Shown here one piece after another: positions 22,685-30,078 of a stretch of 64,000 nucleotides of DNA; within the stretch, counting starts at the first letter, position 1, and each line of letters opens with the position of its first letter. The DNA is from Magnetovibrio sp. GTDB taxonomy: Bacteria > Pseudomonadota > Alphaproteobacteria > Rhodospirillales > Casp-alpha2. Both the position numbers and the translations under genes were made by a program. Below the pieces are notes generated by a model. That model saw only the letters and a list, made by a program, of their open reading frames with translations. It was not told the DNA's origin and did no database searches. The stretch is taken from contig NZFO01000009.1 of NCBI GenBank assembly GCA_002690705.1, positions 178,240 to 242,239 on the forward strand. The letters are read 5' to 3'.

Positions 22685-23527
22685 CTAATAGGTACTTAGG
22701 TCTTCTATTGTAGTACGATGCATATGTCGCGGTTGATCATTTCCATAATCGCCAACACCTCTGTGGATTAGTGCACGATTGTCCCAAACCACGACATCTC
22801 CAGATTGCCATTTATGTCTGTAAACAACCTCTGGGCGTGTCATGTGTGCAAAAAGGAAAGCAAGTAATGCCCTGTTTTCGGAAAGCGTGACACCTTTAAT
22901 ACGAACCGTAAAACCCTCATTGATAAATAGACATTTTCTGCCACTTTCGGGATGCGTGCGCACTACAGGGTGTTCTACTAGTGGGCGATCATTCAAGGGG
23001 TCTTTAGGTCGCACTTTTGAGTTCCTACCGCCACGAAAAGCATGAGCGAATAGATGTTCTGCAGTTAAGTAGTTTAACATATTTTGGATAGGTTCGGATA
23101 ATGTTTCGTATGCATGGGCTGTTGATGAAAAAAGAGTATCTCCGCCGCATTCTGGAACCTCAATCCCATATAAAACCGAGCCCATGGATGGGTTTACTTC
23201 GTAAGTGAGGTCTGAATGCCAATACTGTCCTGCATAGGCCCGACCTTCAGGATTTCCATTCTTCTTTTTATTAGAAAGGCGATAAATTTCTGGGTAATTA
23301 TCCAACAACGCATCTTTCAACACATGTATCATGAGTGGACCAAAGCGTTTAGAAAAGTTAATTAGACTAACTGGTGTTAAATTTTGATCGCGAATTACAA
23401 TTACCGAGTGTTGAACAAGGGCATCATTAATTTCGCGGAACAATGCGTCCTCAAGCGGCTTAGACAGATCTACATTGCTGATCTCAGCTCCGAGAATTGG
23501 TGTGGCTGGACTAACTGTAAGTGGCAT
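22685..23527 (-). CDS. TauD/TfdA-family Fe(II)/2-oxoglutarate dioxygenase (paralog 1)
   Basis: A 280-residue 2-oxoglutarate-dependent non-heme iron dioxygenase. The iron motif HxD is in GQYWHSDLTY, the distal His in NRALIHRGVGDY and the 2-oxoglutarate-binding Arg in HMHRTTI. The N-terminal LGAEISNVDL and VIVIRDQNLTP segments are typical of TauD. ATG 23527 is chosen; TTG 23539 four codons upstream would give MSD as in paralog 2. The substrate may be taurine, a sulfonate, a phenoxyacetate-like acid or something else; the sequence does not decide. It reads in the same direction as the acetoacetyl-CoA synthetase but is separated by 440 bases with a probable terminator. Confidence 0.92.
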   Translation of the reverse strand: MPLTVSPATPILGAEISNVDLSKPLEDALFREINDALVQHSVIVIRDQNLTPVSLINFSKRFGPLMIHVLKDALLDNYPEIYRLSNKKKNGNPEGRAYAGQYWHSDLTYEVNPSMGSVLYGIEVPECGGDTLFSSTAHAYETLSEPIQNMLNYLTAEHLFAHAFRGGRNSKVRPKDPLNDRPLVEHPVVRTHPESGRKCLFINEGFTVRIKGVTLSENRALLAFLFAHMTRPEVVYRHKWQSGDVVVWDNRALIHRGVGDYGNDQPRHMHRTTIEDLSTY

Positions 23528-23539
23528 TAGATCTGACAA

Positions 23540-23968: not shown

Positions 23969-25918
23969 TTAAATCTCTAGTTCTTTGCGATTTTGAAATT
24001 CGTTCAGTACATCAGGGTTCGCCAGTGCCTCTTTATTTGAAATTTCTCTCCCGTGGATTATGTCGCGGACAGACAATTCAGTGATTTTGCCAGACTTCGT
24101 GCGAGGGATATCTGAAACGCGAAGGATACGGGCTGGTATGTGTCGTGGAGTGCAATTAATTCTAATTTGATGTTTTATTTTAGTAATGAGTTTGTCGTCT
24201 AAGTTATTGCCTTCACGGAGAACGACAAATAAAACGATGCGAACGTCATTCTTCCAATCTTGACCAATCACTATGGACTCAAGCACCTCATCGAGTTTTT
24301 CAACTTGGCGATAAATTTCTGCAGTTCCAATCCGAACACCACCCGGGTTTAGTGTTGCATCAGATCTCCCATGAATAATAAGACCGTGGGTATCCGTCCA
24401 CTCCACAAAATCCCCATGGGTCCAAACTTTAGGAAAACGCTTGAAGTAAGCGGCAGTCAACTTCACGTTGTCGGAGTCATTCAGAAATTTGGGAACTGTT
24501 GGAAAGCTCTTGGTACAGACTAGTTCGCCCTTTCCGCTCGGCATGGACTGGCCATTTTGATCATATACATCGATCGCCATCCCGAGTGTCGGTGTTTGAA
24601 TTTCTCCTCTCCACACTGGCCGGGTGGGATCACCTCCACAAAAGCAACCTGCGATGTCTGTACCACCAGACATGGATTGCAAGTGCAAATCGGTTTTGAT
24701 GTGTTCGTAAATGTAATCGAAGGCTTCAGGGGCCAATGTTGATCCAGTAGAGCCTAAGCACTTTAATGTCGCAAGATCATGAGTATTTTTTGGTGATAAT
24801 GCGGCTTTTTTACATGCATCGATAAATTTTGCAGACGTTCCCAATAGTGTCATCCTCTCTGCCTCGGCAAAATCATAAATAATGTTGCCGTTGGGATAAA
24901 AAGGCGAGCCGTCATAAAGCAAAATTGTTGCACCAAACGCGAGGCCACTTACTATCCAATTCCACATCATCCAACCGCACGTGGTGAACCAGAAAATTCT
25001 ATCCCCCTCCTTGACGTCGGTTGACAAAGTGTGTTCGACAGTGTGCTTTAATAATATGCCGCCACCCCCGTGAACTATGCATTTGGGTTTACCTGTAGTA
25101 CCCGATGAGTAAAGGATGTAAAGTGGGTGGTTAAAGGGCACATACTCGTAGTCGATGTCTTTAGCTAAGCAGCCACGCACGAAATCAGAAAAAATTTTTG
25201 CATTTTTAATAGAGCTGATGTCTGGCGCAATCTCTGAGTAAGGAACTACAATCACTTTTTGGACACTCGGTAGCCGTTTGATAATGTCCCTTATCTTGGA
25301 TCTAATATCTATACGCTTACCATTATAGAAATAACCATCGATAGTAATTAAGATTTTAGGTTTAATTTGGCCAAAACGTTCGATTACCCCATCCACTCCA
25401 AAATCGGGAGAACATGAAGACCAAGTTGCCCCGAGGCTTGCACAGGCTAACATTCCGATAACAGCCTCGGGTATATTTGAAATATAGGCTCCTACTCGAT
25501 CTTTTTTTGTTAAACCGGCCTTTCTAAATGCTTGAACCAAACAGGATACGGAGCGATATAACTCATCGCGCGATAATCGACGCTCAACCTTATCCTCACC
25601 TCTGAAAACAAGCGCGTCTTGGTTTCCACGATAACGAAGAAGATTTTCGGCAAAGTTTAAACGGGCTGATGGAAACCATTGTTCATTTGAGAGCTTTTCA
25701 TCTTGTTTGAGGACAGTGCCACCCCATGTTTTAGCAGAGAGACTGGCGAATTTGCAGACACTCTCCCAGAATTTCTCTCTTTCTTCGATGGAAAATCGCC
25801 ATAGAGCATCGTTGTCTGTAAGCGCGACAGACCATTGATCAGAAACCTCTTTTCTAAACCGAGTAATGTTAGCAGTAGCAACGCGTGTCGGATTGGGTGA
25901 CCATATCGGATGTGGCAT
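23969..25918 (-). CDS. Acetoacetyl-CoA synthetase
   Basis: A 649-residue AMP-forming acyl-CoA synthetase that converts acetoacetate, ATP and CoA to acetoacetyl-CoA. The P-loop YILYSSGTTGKPKCIVHGGG, the FWFTTCGWMMWNW segment, the GSTGSTLAPEAFDYIYEHIK region and the SGGTDIAGCF motif are all diagnostic of the acetoacetyl branch, and length is typical. The C-terminal RTKSGKITELSVRD carries the catalytic Lys. ATG 25918 starts MPHPIWSPN, as in the family, with AAGAGA upstream; the frame runs 46 codons further but that part is not conserved. It fits use of ketone bodies or PHB-derived acetoacetate. Confidence 0.95.
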   Translation of the reverse strand: MPHPIWSPNPTRVATANITRFRKEVSDQWSVALTDNDALWRFSIEEREKFWESVCKFASLSAKTWGGTVLKQDEKLSNEQWFPSARLNFAENLLRYRGNQDALVFRGEDKVERRLSRDELYRSVSCLVQAFRKAGLTKKDRVGAYISNIPEAVIGMLACASLGATWSSCSPDFGVDGVIERFGQIKPKILITIDGYFYNGKRIDIRSKIRDIIKRLPSVQKVIVVPYSEIAPDISSIKNAKIFSDFVRGCLAKDIDYEYVPFNHPLYILYSSGTTGKPKCIVHGGGGILLKHTVEHTLSTDVKEGDRIFWFTTCGWMMWNWIVSGLAFGATILLYDGSPFYPNGNIIYDFAEAERMTLLGTSAKFIDACKKAALSPKNTHDLATLKCLGSTGSTLAPEAFDYIYEHIKTDLHLQSMSGGTDIAGCFCGGDPTRPVWRGEIQTPTLGMAIDVYDQNGQSMPSGKGELVCTKSFPTVPKFLNDSDNVKLTAAYFKRFPKVWTHGDFVEWTDTHGLIIHGRSDATLNPGGVRIGTAEIYRQVEKLDEVLESIVIGQDWKNDVRIVLFVVLREGNNLDDKLITKIKHQIRINCTPRHIPARILRVSDIPRTKSGKITELSVRDIIHGREISNKEALANPDVLNEFQNRKELEI

Positions 25919-26411
25919 TATTAATCTCTTATTTTGAATAAACTGAATTATGACGGTAGGGCTAAGGAGGTTCAAGCTGACAAAAGTCGAACAAATTATC
26001 TCTGAAAAAATATTGGTTATTAATCTAGACAGATCATCTCTTGGACATAAGAACATTACTCAACTTATCAGTCCATAAACCTGTTATCTGTTAAGCAGAG
26101 AAGATATACCGCATAGAGTAACAGTTAGTGAGATGAGATAGTTAAGTTCGTCGATAGTGGTAGTTTCTTGCGATGAGTTCTGGGTGAATGGAAGGGCCGT
26201 AAAACCACTCTACGCAGAGGCTATTTGAAGAAAACTTCACCATGGAGTGCAAAATTTATTAGATCTTTTGGGCTTAGTTCTTTTGATTGTTTGAGGTCTC
26301 TTTAGTACAGTATGAGGTATTAGAAAACTTACTACTAGTATTGATCTTAAGCCTCCGGCTTTCTTGATTAAGGCCTCTTATGCCGCAAACAGCAATGAAG
26401 AGCATTCTATA
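25919..26411. other. Intergenic region between acetoacetyl-CoA synthetase and the SDR pseudogene
   Basis: About 490 bases at a divergent junction. It must include the synthetase promoter. A small hairpin AAGCC-TCC-GGCTT is at 26349-26361, too short for a confident call. No supported gene. Confidence 0.4.
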
Positions 26412-27173
26412 ATGAAGACTGGTGGGATTGCAGCAATTGTTACAGGGGCTGTATCTGGATTGGGCGAGGCAAAGACGCATGCTTTAGCAGAAGTCGGCGC
26501 AAAACTAGGCATTTTAGACAAAGACTTTAGATGGTAAAAAAAAGTGGCGAGAGAGACTGGAGGAAAACCATTTCCATGCGATGTATCTGACGCGTTTATC
26601 ATCTAAACAGCTGTCGAAGCCGCATGTGAAGAGCATGGTATAGCCCGTATCTCGGTGAGTTGTGCAGGTGCAGCTCCCTCTGCTAAACTAGTTCGGCGCG
26701 AGGGACCACAGCAGCTAGAATTATTCCGGAAGACGATTGAAGTGAATCTAACTGGTACATTTAACATGATGCGCCTCGCTGCGGCGGGTATGCAGAGTTT
26801 AAATACTAAGTCTGACTGGGAGCGTGGGGTGATCATCAATACAGCGTCAATAGCTGCATTTGAGGCGCAAATAGGACAAGCGGCCTGCGGAGCATCAAAA
26901 GGAGGGGTGGTGGTGATGACGTTACCAGCAGCGCGAGAATTTTTGCGCTTGGCTATCCGCATAATATCAATTGCGCCAGGAATATTTGCGATGCCTATGC
27001 TATCCGGGCCACCACAAGGGGTTCAGGACCGTCTTGGATCGTCGGTGCCGTTTCCTTCACGATTGGGTAATCTGAGAGAATATGCAGGATTGGTTATGCA
27101 AATGATTTTCAACGCTATGCTGAACGGTGAAGATATTCGTTTAGATGGCGCGACTCGAATGCAGGCAATTTAA
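26412..27173 (+). pseudogene. 3-hydroxyacyl-CoA dehydrogenase type-2-like SDR, broken by two stop codons
   Basis: The whole frame from ATG 26412 to TAA 27171-27173 reads as an SDR of the 3-hydroxyacyl-CoA dehydrogenase type-2 (HSD10-like) group: VTGAVSGLGEAKTHALAE, KPFPCDVSDA, VNLTGTFNMMRLAAAGM, GVIINTASIAAFEAQIGQAA, IAPGIFAMPMLSG and PFPSRLG, ending LNGEDIRLDGATRM. Two TAA codons interrupt it, at codon 42 (26535-26537) and codon 65 (26604-26606), with no frameshift. The catalytic Tyr of Y-x3-K is Cys (QAACGASKGG), which alone should kill activity. Length is otherwise normal. A late fragment from 26655 stays open but lacks the cofactor domain. It sits 8 bp before an intact SDR gene. Confidence 0.88.
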
Positions 27174-27181
27174 TTAGGAAC

Positions 27182-27985
27182 ATGACTATGCGGTTAAAAG
27201 GTAAGACGGCAATTATCGTTGGCGCTGGGCAGACTCACGGGGAAACTATGGGTAATGGTCGAGCGACGGCTTTGCGGTTTGCGGAGGAGGGGGCATCATT
27301 ATTATTGGTGGATAAAAACGAGGACTCTGCATTAGAGACAAGCTTGTTGATTAAGGAGGCGGGAGGGACAGCGTCCGTTATTCAAGCTGATATTACTCAG
27401 GAGAATAGGTGTAAAGCACTCGCTAAAACCTGCGTTGATCTGTACGGCAAAATAGACATCCTTCACAATAACGTTGGGCGCTCAGAGGGAGATCAGTCAA
27501 CGTTTGATTTAAATGTAAGCACTTGGGATCGTCTTATGGATATGAATTTAAAAGGCATGTTTATGACCATAAAGCATGTTTTGCCGTTTATGCGTGATCA
27601 ATTATGCGGCTCTATTATTAATGTCTCCTCGACAGCTTCCATATCAACTTGTGCTACTGTGACATATAAAACTTCCAAAGGAGCAATCAACACAATGACT
27701 CAACATGTCGCTATGGAAAACGCTGCGTATGGTATTCGAGCCAATGCGATCTTGCCGGGTTTGATGGATACGCCTATGGCCATTGAACGGCGCGCGCGGG
27801 AGCAGGGTATTGAGAGGGATTTAGTGCGGAAAGCGCGAAATATAAAAGTACCGTTACGGGCGAGTATGGGGACAGCATTGGATGTTGCCAATGCTGCTCT
27901 CTTTCTGGCCTCAGATGAGGCTCAATATATTACTGGTGTTTTGCTTCCTGTTGATGGTGGCAGGCTCGTTCGTATAGGAGAATAA
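27182..27985 (+). CDS. SDR-family oxidoreductase
   Basis: A 267-residue classical short-chain dehydrogenase. The cofactor motif is GAGQTHGETMGNGRATA, a stretched glycine motif typical of one SDR subgroup; NNVGRSEGD follows, and the catalytic set is intact, with Ser in NVSSTASIS and Tyr/Lys in YKTSKGAINTM. The C-terminal YITGVLLPVDGGRL is standard. An Asp after the second strand (LLLVDKNED) suggests NAD preference. The likely role is oxidation of a hydroxy acid, alcohol or hydroxyacyl-CoA. It follows the pseudogene by 8 bp and precedes a nitroreductase by 5 bp, so it shares their transcript. Confidence 0.92.
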   Translation: MTMRLKGKTAIIVGAGQTHGETMGNGRATALRFAEEGASLLLVDKNEDSALETSLLIKEAGGTASVIQADITQENRCKALAKTCVDLYGKIDILHNNVGRSEGDQSTFDLNVSTWDRLMDMNLKGMFMTIKHVLPFMRDQLCGSIINVSSTASISTCATVTYKTSKGAINTMTQHVAMENAAYGIRANAILPGLMDTPMAIERRAREQGIERDLVRKARNIKVPLRASMGTALDVANAALFLASDEAQYITGVLLPVDGGRLVRIGE

Positions 27986-27990
27986 TTTTT

Positions 27991-28701
27991 ATGGATACGC
28001 ATACCAAACCTGTTTCGTTAGACCCTGCTCAAAGCGTCAACGATGCGATCCGAACTCGCCATTCCATTCGTGCTTTCCTTCCCCAACCTGTCTCTTACGA
28101 GACGATTTGCGAGATATTGGACGTTTCTGCCCGTGCGCCAAGTGGAACTAATATGCAGCCTTGGAATACCTACGTAATCACTGGCGACCGGCTGCAAGAA
28201 CTTAGCAATGACTTATTGCAAGCTCATGATGCCCAAAATCCTGAGAACACAGCGGAGGTCCGGTACTATCCCAAGGAGTTTTTTGAACCATATACAGCAC
28301 GCCGCCGTAAAGTAGGATGGGACCTATATGGACTGCTGGGCATAGAGAAAGGAGAAAAACATAAGATGCACGTCCAACATGGAAGGAATTTCTCATTTTT
28401 TGGCGCTCCAGTTGGTCTTATGTTTTCCATTCACAGGGATCTCGAAACTGGTAGTTGGCTCGATTACGGAATGTACCTACAAAATATCATGTTGGCGGCG
28501 CGCGCTAAGGGGTTGCATACCTGTCCTCAAGCTGCTTTTACCCATCTTCATAGAGTCATTCGCGAGCACATATCCATACCTGATGATCACGTATTGGTTT
28601 GTGGTATGTCACTTGGCTACGCTGACGGGACCGCTGTCGAAAATACACTTGTTACCGAGCGTGAACCTGTTCAGGCGTTGACGAAATTTTTTGGCTTTTA
28701 A
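27991..28701 (+). CDS. Nitroreductase-family FMN protein
   Basis: A 236-residue member of the nitroreductase fold. The FMN-binding N-terminal motif is IRTRHSIRAFLPQPV, followed by ILDVSARAPSGTNMQPW and a VCGMSLGYADG segment near the C-terminus, all family hallmarks. It should bind FMN and use NAD(P)H; substrates range from nitroaromatics to quinones and dehydrogenation steps. AGGAG lies before the ATG at 27991. It overlaps the convergent TauD paralog 2 gene by 4 bp at the stops. Co-transcription with an SDR suggests a shared small-molecule redox pathway, but which one is not visible. Confidence 0.9.
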   Translation: MDTHTKPVSLDPAQSVNDAIRTRHSIRAFLPQPVSYETICEILDVSARAPSGTNMQPWNTYVITGDRLQELSNDLLQAHDAQNPENTAEVRYYPKEFFEPYTARRRKVGWDLYGLLGIEKGEKHKMHVQHGRNFSFFGAPVGLMFSIHRDLETGSWLDYGMYLQNIMLAARAKGLHTCPQAAFTHLHRVIREHISIPDDHVLVCGMSLGYADGTAVENTLVTEREPVQALTKFFGF

Positions 28702-29552
28702 TTAGGGTACGAACCCTTGACACTTACTCGGATAAAATGTCGAGCCTCATTCATGTCATAATCTGCAATCGCGAGGTGACAGGTTGATTGGTTATCCCAA
28801 ATAACGACATCACCTACGGCCCAACTGTGGCGATAAATAAAGTGCGGTTTTTGAATATGTGAAAATAAAAAACTTAGCATCGCCTCGCTCTCTGAAGGCG
28901 ATAACTCGTTAATATGACGGGTGAACCCTGGATTGACGTACAGGGCCTTTTCTTTGGTGTCTGGATGAGTACGAATAACGGGGTGGCTAACTGGCGGAGT
29001 CGCGGCTCGGGCTTTGTCTGTAAGTGGAGGTCTCTCAGGGTAATGGTTAAAGTATTTTTCGTAGGCAAGAGCGTATTCGTGGGTAGCCGTTAAATTTTCC
29101 AGTAAGCCCTTTATTACCGGGGATAATTCACTGTATGCAGATATCATGCTCGTGAACATTGTATCTCCCCCGTAACTGGGCACTTCAAGTCCGTGCAATA
29201 TTGATACCATGGTTGGTCTTGCCATGTAAGAGAGGTCGGAGTGCCAGTATTGCCCAGCCCTAATAGCGCCGATGGGTCGGCCTTTATGTTTTAGGTTGGA
29301 AACGACGAAAACATTCGGGTTTTTTGGCAGGGCAAACTGCTTAATAACATGCTGCTCTGGTTCCCCAAAACGGCGTGCAAATGCCTCTAGTCTATCGGGT
29401 GTTAAGCTTTGTTCTCGAATAACTGTTACCGCGTGGTCAAAGGTTAACTGCCGAATTTCCTCGAACTGCCCATCTGAAATATCAGCCAGGTTTACTTTGC
29501 TGATCTCTACCCCGATGCTCCCTGAGAGTCGCTTTGTCAAAATATCGCTCAA
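28698..29552 (-). CDS. TauD/TfdA-family Fe(II)/2-oxoglutarate dioxygenase (paralog 2)
   Basis: A 284-residue 2-oxoglutarate-dependent dioxygenase. HxD is in GQYWHSDLSY, the distal His in STCHLAIADY and the 2-oxoglutarate Arg in RHFIRVSVKG. TTG 29552 is chosen because it overlaps the stop of the upstream Nif11-like gene by 4 bp (TTGA) and gives [18 protein letters not shown], the usual TauD start; an ATG at 29594 would force a 46-bp overlap and a non-conserved extension. It is clearly related to the paralog at 22685-23527 but not close enough to be a recent copy. Third gene of the phhB / Nif11-like / tauD operon. Confidence 0.92.
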   Translation of the reverse strand: MSDILTKRLSGSIGVEISKVNLADISDGQFEEIRQLTFDHAVTVIREQSLTPDRLEAFARRFGEPEQHVIKQFALPKNPNVFVVSNLKHKGRPIGAIRAGQYWHSDLSYMARPTMVSILHGLEVPSYGGDTMFTSMISAYSELSPVIKGLLENLTATHEYALAYEKYFNHYPERPPLTDKARAATPPVSHPVIRTHPDTKEKALYVNPGFTRHINELSPSESEAMLSFLFSHIQKPHFIYRHSWAVGDVVIWDNQSTCHLAIADYDMNEARHFIRVSVKGSYPN

Positions 29553-29788
29553 GAGCGCACCAAACCCAATTCGCGAGCAATGGGCCATCCCCATGGTCGT
29601 GGCAGGCTCTCGGCGCTCGCTATGCGAAGGCGTAAAAAAGCTCCAAGATCATCGGTAGAAAAATCAATTCCAATGGCTTTGCCAAATTTTACTATGTCAG
29701 CGGCACTGGCTTTATCCGGCAGTTCGGTAATAGATATTTCTCCTGCTTCAATTTGAGCAATCATTTTCATCACATTTTCGCGGCTCAT
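29549..29788 (-). CDS. Small Nif11-like protein
   Basis: A 79-residue protein beginning [17 protein letters not shown] and continuing [19 protein letters not shown] then [10 protein letters not shown]. The helical start, the alanine-rich middle and the GIDFSTDDL motif resemble the Nif11 domain (PF07862) found in nitrogen-fixation-linked small proteins and in NHLP/Nif11 leader peptides. No double-glycine cleavage site or core peptide is seen, and no lanthipeptide or rSAM enzyme is near. ATG 29788 overlaps the phhB stop by 4 bp (ATGA) and its stop overlaps the tauD start by 4 bp. That tight coupling argues that it is a real gene. Function unknown. Confidence 0.6.
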
Positions 29789-30078
29789 GCGTCTGCAACC
29801 TTGTCCATAAATTTTGCACACTCAATATCCAAATCTGTCAATCCCCCCATTTCATGAGTGGATAACGTGACCTCAACCCGGTTATAAACGTTAAACCATT
29901 CAGGATGGTGATTAATACGTTCAGCATTCATCGCACATTTGGTCATAAATGCAAAAGCTGCATTAAAATCAGAAAAAGAGAATGATTTTGTGATGGCATC
30001 ACGCCCCTCGACGTAAGACCAACCAATAAGAGAATTGATCTCTTGGTTGCCTTGGAGTGTATCTAGTTTTTTAACCAT
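29785..30078 (-). CDS. phhB: Pterin-4a-carbinolamine dehydratase
   Basis: A 97-residue protein of the PCD/DCoH family. The conserved catalytic segment [20 protein letters not shown], followed by GGLTDLD, holds the family's His residues. It dehydrates 4a-hydroxytetrahydrobiopterin made by aromatic amino acid hydroxylases and so recycles the pterin; some family members instead serve folate or molybdopterin-related pathways. ATG 30078 has GAGGA at about seven bases. It is the first gene of a coupled three-gene operon. No phenylalanine hydroxylase gene (phhA) is in the window, so its pterin partner is elsewhere or it has another task. Confidence 0.92.

Follow-up and report, generated by a model that had tools for sequence, protein, structure and literature searches.

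Do genes that overlap one another in a bacterial operon encode proteins that act together? The question is raised by three genes of Magnetovibrio sp. within a 64,000-nucleotide stretch of DNA, the whole of which we refer to as the window. A gene for pterin-4a-carbinolamine dehydratase (PCD, or DCoH; 97 residues, positions 29785..30078), a gene for a Nif11-type small protein of 79 residues (29549..29788) and a gene for a 2-oxoglutarate/Fe(II) dioxygenase of the TauD/TfdA family (TauD2; 284 residues, 28698..29552) lie head to tail on the minus strand as one operon, joined by 4-bp overlaps with the sequence ATGA (29785-29788) and TTGA (29549-29552). The first-pass annotation had taken these overlaps as a strong sign that the three products are made together, and had guessed at a pterin role upstream and at a small protein that serves the dioxygenase as substrate, adaptor or inhibitor. 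We confirm the layout and find co-transcription of the three genes likely, but comparison with related genomes does not support a three-part functional system. On balance we lean towards an operon assembled stepwise in one lineage rather than a conserved machine, in which the small protein would be a folded adaptor or regulator whose C-terminal tail docks on a partner encoded elsewhere.

The overlapping genes and their surroundings

The TTGA junction requires the TTG start that we have assumed for TauD2; in-frame ATGs at 29588 and 29594 (36 and 42 bases upstream) would lengthen the overlap, so the start of this gene is uncertain. At its other end, the TauD2 stop codon overlaps the stop codon of a convergent plus-strand gene, again by 4 bp (28698-28701). 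That gene (27991..28701) encodes a nitroreductase-family protein, 61% identical to the copies in two congeners and identified through a Pfam search of the copy at one of their loci, L008. Beyond it on the plus strand lie SDR2 (27182..27985), a short-chain dehydrogenase gene whose product is 78% identical to SDR2 of L008, itself identified with Pfam, and which in this genus separates the nitroreductase gene from SDR1 (26412-27173, likewise on the plus strand). SDR1 looks broken in the window genome, with two in-frame stop codons where each congener gives one long SDR1 match. Next to SDR1 on the minus strand is a gene for an acetoacetate--CoA ligase-like protein (AACS; 23969..26056), assigned from synteny and from 70.5% identity to the L008 copy, which exceeds the TIGR01217 cut-off, and beside AACS is a different TauD gene (TauD1; 22685..23539, minus strand), whose product is 73-74% identical to copies in both congeners.

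Overlaps of 4 bp are common in bacterial operons and are therefore weak evidence for joint function; two of them on the same strand nevertheless make co-expression of the three genes likely, and to this extent the original reading of the junctions stands. The small open reading frame, though short, is judged from comparison to be a genuine gene, since homologues retain it with altered codons, their products being 53, 51 and 34-44% identical to the window small protein over the aligned family; its conservation had been an explicit concern when the locus was first annotated.

Origins of the dehydratase and the dioxygenase

The identities first proposed for the two enzymes proved correct. PCD matches PF01329 with an E value of 3.2e-30, narrowly exceeds the NF002020 equivalog cut-off (146.7 against 146) and aligns to DCoH of known structure (1dch, E 1.5e-31) with the HHP stretch and the distal histidine in place, so that both the family score and the HHP...H motif of PF01329 are present. 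The conserved histidines are H57, H58 and H75, which we take to be catalytic. One PCD match each was found in 40 of the 48 genomes of the window's family, and of 30 short PCD loci from this family, 27 show the gene in the company of at least one of SDR1, AACS, a zincin metallopeptidase and a response regulator; L072, L078 and the short locus of the window itself lack all of these neighbours. In the window itself neither the metallopeptidase nor the response regulator gene is beside PCD. Because 27 of the 30 loci keep at least one of its genes, the neighbourhood of AACS, SDR, PCD and metallopeptidase is most simply read as predating the insertion of SDR2, the nitroreductase gene and the small-protein gene in this genus. 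PCD would thus be the pterin recycling enzyme that genomes of this family ordinarily carry in single copy, a reading with which the role in Moco metabolism reported for the PCD family in excerpts of PMC3223725 agrees.

TauD2 matches PF02668 (E 5.1e-66) over its full length, and alignment to the solved TauD structures 3pvj and 1gqw places H104, D106 and H259, presumably the metal ligands, and R275, presumably the 2-oxoglutarate ligand, in the expected positions; it thus has the family score, the HxD...H motif and the 2-oxoglutarate-binding arginine of PF02668 members. Its score of 226.7 bits falls below the 313-bit cut-off of the taurine dioxygenase equivalog. Seven of the eight genomes of another genus, g7, encode a TauD with 57-59% identity to TauD2 (53% in the eighth), and in a tree TauD2 clusters with those seven TauDs (99/97), separately from TauD1 and on a long branch; none of the eight genomes yielded a small-protein match. 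Base composition gives no signal that TauD2 is foreign (its GC content is 0.464, and ten other genes range from 0.398 to 0.490). In both congeners (L008 and L009) PCD and the small-protein gene are adjacent with a 4-bp overlap and no TauD gene stands between the small-protein and nitroreductase genes, whose stop codons there overlap by 4 bp; in the window it is the TauD2 stop that takes this place. From these sequence comparisons, TauD2 was either gained in the window's lineage or lost from the two congeners, alternatives that are not separable with only three genomes in the genus. We note that the window genome encodes a third related TauD besides TauD1 and TauD2, and that in one g7 locus (L087, 4563-10323) the TauD2 relative appears by eye to be divergent from a LysR regulator gene and to be followed by a membrane-protein gene and then one for a large protein resembling iron-sulfur oxidoreductases.

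The small protein, its distribution and its tail

RiPP precursors are the best-known Nif11-type proteins. That the small protein is of this type, as the first-pass annotation proposed, holds at the level of its family, judging from profile comparisons of its homologues, but not for the window protein taken singly. The latter (P0001) matched 0 Pfam families at E<=1, a PF07862 search of the window genome returned 0 matches, and against TIGR03798 the protein scored 14.4 bits (E 0.034), below the cut-off of 32.3. Among its nine aligned relatives, counted at E<=1, eight match PF07862 (best E 2.9e-8) and six match TIGR03798 (best 6.9e-8), and over positions 1-53 family profiles match a solved Nif11 protein, 9zn4, with E values of 3.1e-5 and 3.6e-5; it is on these matches of the homologues that we consider the relationship settled at family level.

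The small protein is rare. It was found in eight of the 48 genomes of the window's family and in nine of 297 genomes of an order sample that includes those eight; three of 385 genomes matched in the class sample, with the tail in the window's own genome only, and one of 398, again the window's own, in the phylum sample. In the larger samples, scoring covered the first 14-19 candidates of each genome. Every genome with any match to the family has one. Another member, at L014, comes from a MAG labelled Acidiferrobacteraceae. Among the seven relatives that carry names, five are MAGs labelled Rhodospirillaceae and one is labelled Magnetovibrio; in the family of genome G891 the small protein was found in one of ten genomes. 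Matches in G424 and G444 (class sample; E 4.8e-5 and 9.3e-5) cover only about positions 2-57 and lie inside ORFs of about 390 residues, and we do not count them as members. ORFs of about 390 residues with an N-terminal Nif11-like stretch, matched to about position 57, are present at L028 (4215-5393) and L029 (2596-3768), the former adjoining what look by eye like genes for an ABC exporter and for the membrane fusion protein that goes with it.

A single-sequence search of genome contigs with the small protein gave no match. An alignment-based scan relied on a single exact peptide pattern, SLPRPWGW, and so misses members whose motif differs, among them those at L025 and L026. It returned nine loci, two of which were dropped before counting: at L015 the match is not within any ORF of at least 60 residues, and at L016 it falls in a 163-residue frame without small-protein family sequence. 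Five stretches of viral contigs fit a pattern, none of them related to the small protein, and plasmids searched with the L008 small protein gave no match.

What sets this family apart is its C-terminus. In an alignment of ten members, a small set in which L011 and L012 are nearly identical, the last 22 residues (the tail, 58-79) have a mean identity of 76% and residues 1-57 (the head) 36%, the tail being the more conserved part in all 45 pairs, which are not independent and for which the border of the tail was set after the alignment had been viewed. Fifteen positions do not vary at all: F43, L48, I56, A59, S61, L62, P63, W66, G67, W68, A71, R72, L76, V77 and R78. In the tail, 441 of 651 same-residue comparisons (M and W excluded) use different codons; since codons are free to change, it is the peptide and not the DNA that is conserved. 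A variable head and a fixed tail are the opposite of what would be expected for a Nif11 leader peptide. Excerpts of PMC2887384, PMC12455567, PMC3223725, PMC7726476, PMC12636437 and PMC3023750 contain no description of this tail.

Judging by structure prediction, the most likely form of the small protein is a folded domain of Nif11-like helices and a tail helix. In models built from alignments of eight sequences the window protein reached pLDDT 84 (pTM 0.67) and the L014 homologue pLDDT 90 (pTM 0.79), and in both the tail forms an ordered turn and a helix at 67-73, with block pLDDT of 83-92 over residues 61 to 79 or 80. The confidence that AlphaFold assigns may reflect conservation instead of true packing. 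Neither model had a Foldseek match in the PDB at E<=0.001; VIA-align scores of up to Z 3.2 (3lap, an arginine repressor; rmsd 3.1, 56 residues aligned) and Z 3.9 (3epz, DNMT1; rmsd 4.3, 72 aligned) are uninformative, and 9zn4 was not among the VIA-align matches listed.

Changing neighbours and the role of the small protein

The first-pass annotation had looked to conservation of the gene trio, and this is where its proposal fails. A tblastn search with TauD2 of the nine other small-protein loci (4.5-17 kb, with L025 and L026 near contig ends) found no TauD gene beside the small-protein gene in any of them, the only hits being the AACS-adjacent TauD1 genes, about 4.8 kb off, in L008 and L009. 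PCD is adjacent in these two congeners only. In 37 of the 40 family genomes with PCD the small-protein gene is not next to it: the small protein was not found in 33, and in four (G006, G018, G029 and G062) its gene is on another contig among other genes. In one more genome, G024, the small protein is present and PCD was not found.

The genes that take the place of PCD are varied, as judged from 30 selected neighbour proteins scored with Pfam. The small-protein gene begins 39 bp after an SDR gene in L011/L012 (identified by its resemblance to the SDR that was scored at L010), 20 bp after a corrinoid-protein gene in L025, and 55 bp after a gene for an OB-fold protein, itself downstream of a thiolase gene, in L014/L027; it has no same-strand gene before it in L010 and L026, and L013 is left out of this list. 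In total, it follows a same-strand metabolic gene in seven of ten loci, and a role beside diverse enzymes is conceivable on this ground.

We also looked at wider surroundings. Genes of methylated-amine metabolism occur near the small-protein gene at L008 (MttB, about 5 kb away), at L025, where the corrinoid-protein gene directly precedes it, and at L027, where trimethylamine monooxygenase and type III glutamine synthetase genes are 2.5-4 kb away; we set this link aside, as nothing similar was noticed by eye in the window or in the loci of genus g5. In this part of L027 (11913-16978) the trimethylamine monooxygenase scores 739 bits, above its cut-off, and an ammonium transporter gene is likewise within 8 kb of the small-protein gene. 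The g5 loci (L010, 7682-9563; L011, 5325-8336, the latter by eye) have genes for an N-formylglutamate amidohydrolase, for a CmcJ/NvfI-family oxidoreductase, which in L010 puts an oxidative enzyme, though not one of the TauD family, 2.5 kb from the small-protein gene, and for a protein of about 190 residues without a Pfam or NCBIfam match at the limits applied.

How might these observations be explained? A joint function of the three proteins would fit the likely co-expression and the retention of the PCD and small-protein pair in three genomes of the genus, yet TauD is absent from the flanks of all nine other small-protein loci, the nearest relatives of TauD2 are in genomes that gave no small-protein match, PCD usually occurs without the small protein, and TauD enzymes use 2-oxoglutarate, not pterin. 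Since no TauD gene is beside it at the other loci and PCD is rarely adjacent, the small protein is in general unlikely to be specific to this dioxygenase, and we regard concerted action of all three as very improbable. A function confined to the pair, and to this genus, has somewhat more in its favour. Mammalian DCoH binds HNF1, and DCoH/HNF-1 entries are among the alignment matches of the window PCD; PCD might likewise bind the Nif11-type protein, with which it has kept its 4-bp overlap in three diverged genomes (congener small proteins are 51-53% and PCDs 56-57% identical to those of the window). However, the same tail is present in five family genomes where PCD is elsewhere or was not found, which leaves the conservation of the tail unexplained by PCD binding, and we consider this reading unlikely.

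It is also possible that the small protein is a RiPP precursor, with the Nif11 part as leader and the SLPRPWGW tail as the core from which a conserved peptide product or cofactor is made. RiPP precursors are known among Nif11-related peptides (excerpts of PMC2887384), the mycofactocin precursor offers a precedent for a conserved C-terminus (excerpts of PMC3023750), a B12-binding radical SAM gene is divergent from the small-protein gene in L026, and C39 peptidase genes occur somewhere in the genomes of the congener G002, together with YcaO, and of G891. Against this, the window small protein has neither a Gly-Gly site nor a cysteine, the former being part of a cleavage motif before the core among the features that define N11P precursors (excerpts of PMC2887384); the tail is predicted to be ordered; and, the L026 radical SAM gene aside, no family of maturases was recognised in the 30 neighbour proteins scanned. 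A genome-wide search that covered C39 peptidase and YcaO did not find the former in eight of the ten small-protein genomes or the latter in nine, and the window genome (G000) had neither. We therefore hold a RiPP precursor to be just as unlikely as a pair with PCD. A narrower form of the idea, in which a Nif11-led peptide carries a fixed rather than variable core that enzymes encoded elsewhere would mature into a cofactor-like or signalling product, seems to us slightly less likely again.

We accordingly return to stepwise assembly, the explanation towards which we lean. In this genus the Nif11-type gene, together with the nitroreductase and SDR2 genes, would have come to lie directly downstream of PCD; in the window's lineage a TauD gene of the g7 type would then also have been squeezed between the small-protein and nitroreductase genes, with loss from the congeners as the alternative. 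The small protein would be co-transcribed with whichever gene it lands behind. As the tail stays while the neighbours change, its likeliest role is to bind something encoded elsewhere in the genome, and if its near-invariant tail does dock on such a putative partner, the small protein would act as an adaptor or small regulator whose work does not depend on the genes beside it. An overlap of start and stop codons can thus reflect a recent arrangement of genes, and need not signify joint function. What remains of interest at the locus is a small subfamily of Nif11 proteins whose tail is invariant. Nif11 proteins were described in 2010 as of no known function (excerpts of PMC2887384). That the present lineage combines a fixed tail with changing neighbours and a single match per genome suggests a role for some Nif11 domains as small proteins that stand alone.

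Lastly, we compare the three proteins with known systems. PCD has the histidine motif and the equivalog score of the PCD/DCoH family (PF01329, COG2154) and is unusual only in its neighbour gene; TauD2 resembles other TauD/TfdA dioxygenases (PF02668) in its full length and ligand positions, while remaining under the taurine dioxygenase equivalog cut-off. The small-protein family resembles the Nif11 domain (PF07862) in eight of nine members and in its profile match to 9zn4, although the window member itself goes unrecognised, and its near-invariant tail falls outside the stretch that aligns with 9zn4. With N11P/TIGR03798 precursors it shares short length and a Nif11-type N-terminus; it differs in that its tail is more conserved than its head, in the window protein's lack of Gly-Gly and cysteine, in its single match per genome, and in that no maturase or exporter is recognised beside the window gene. 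Like mycofactocin-type precursors it has a conserved C-terminus, but no invariably linked maturase is seen, and that C-terminus is predicted to form an ordered turn and helix.
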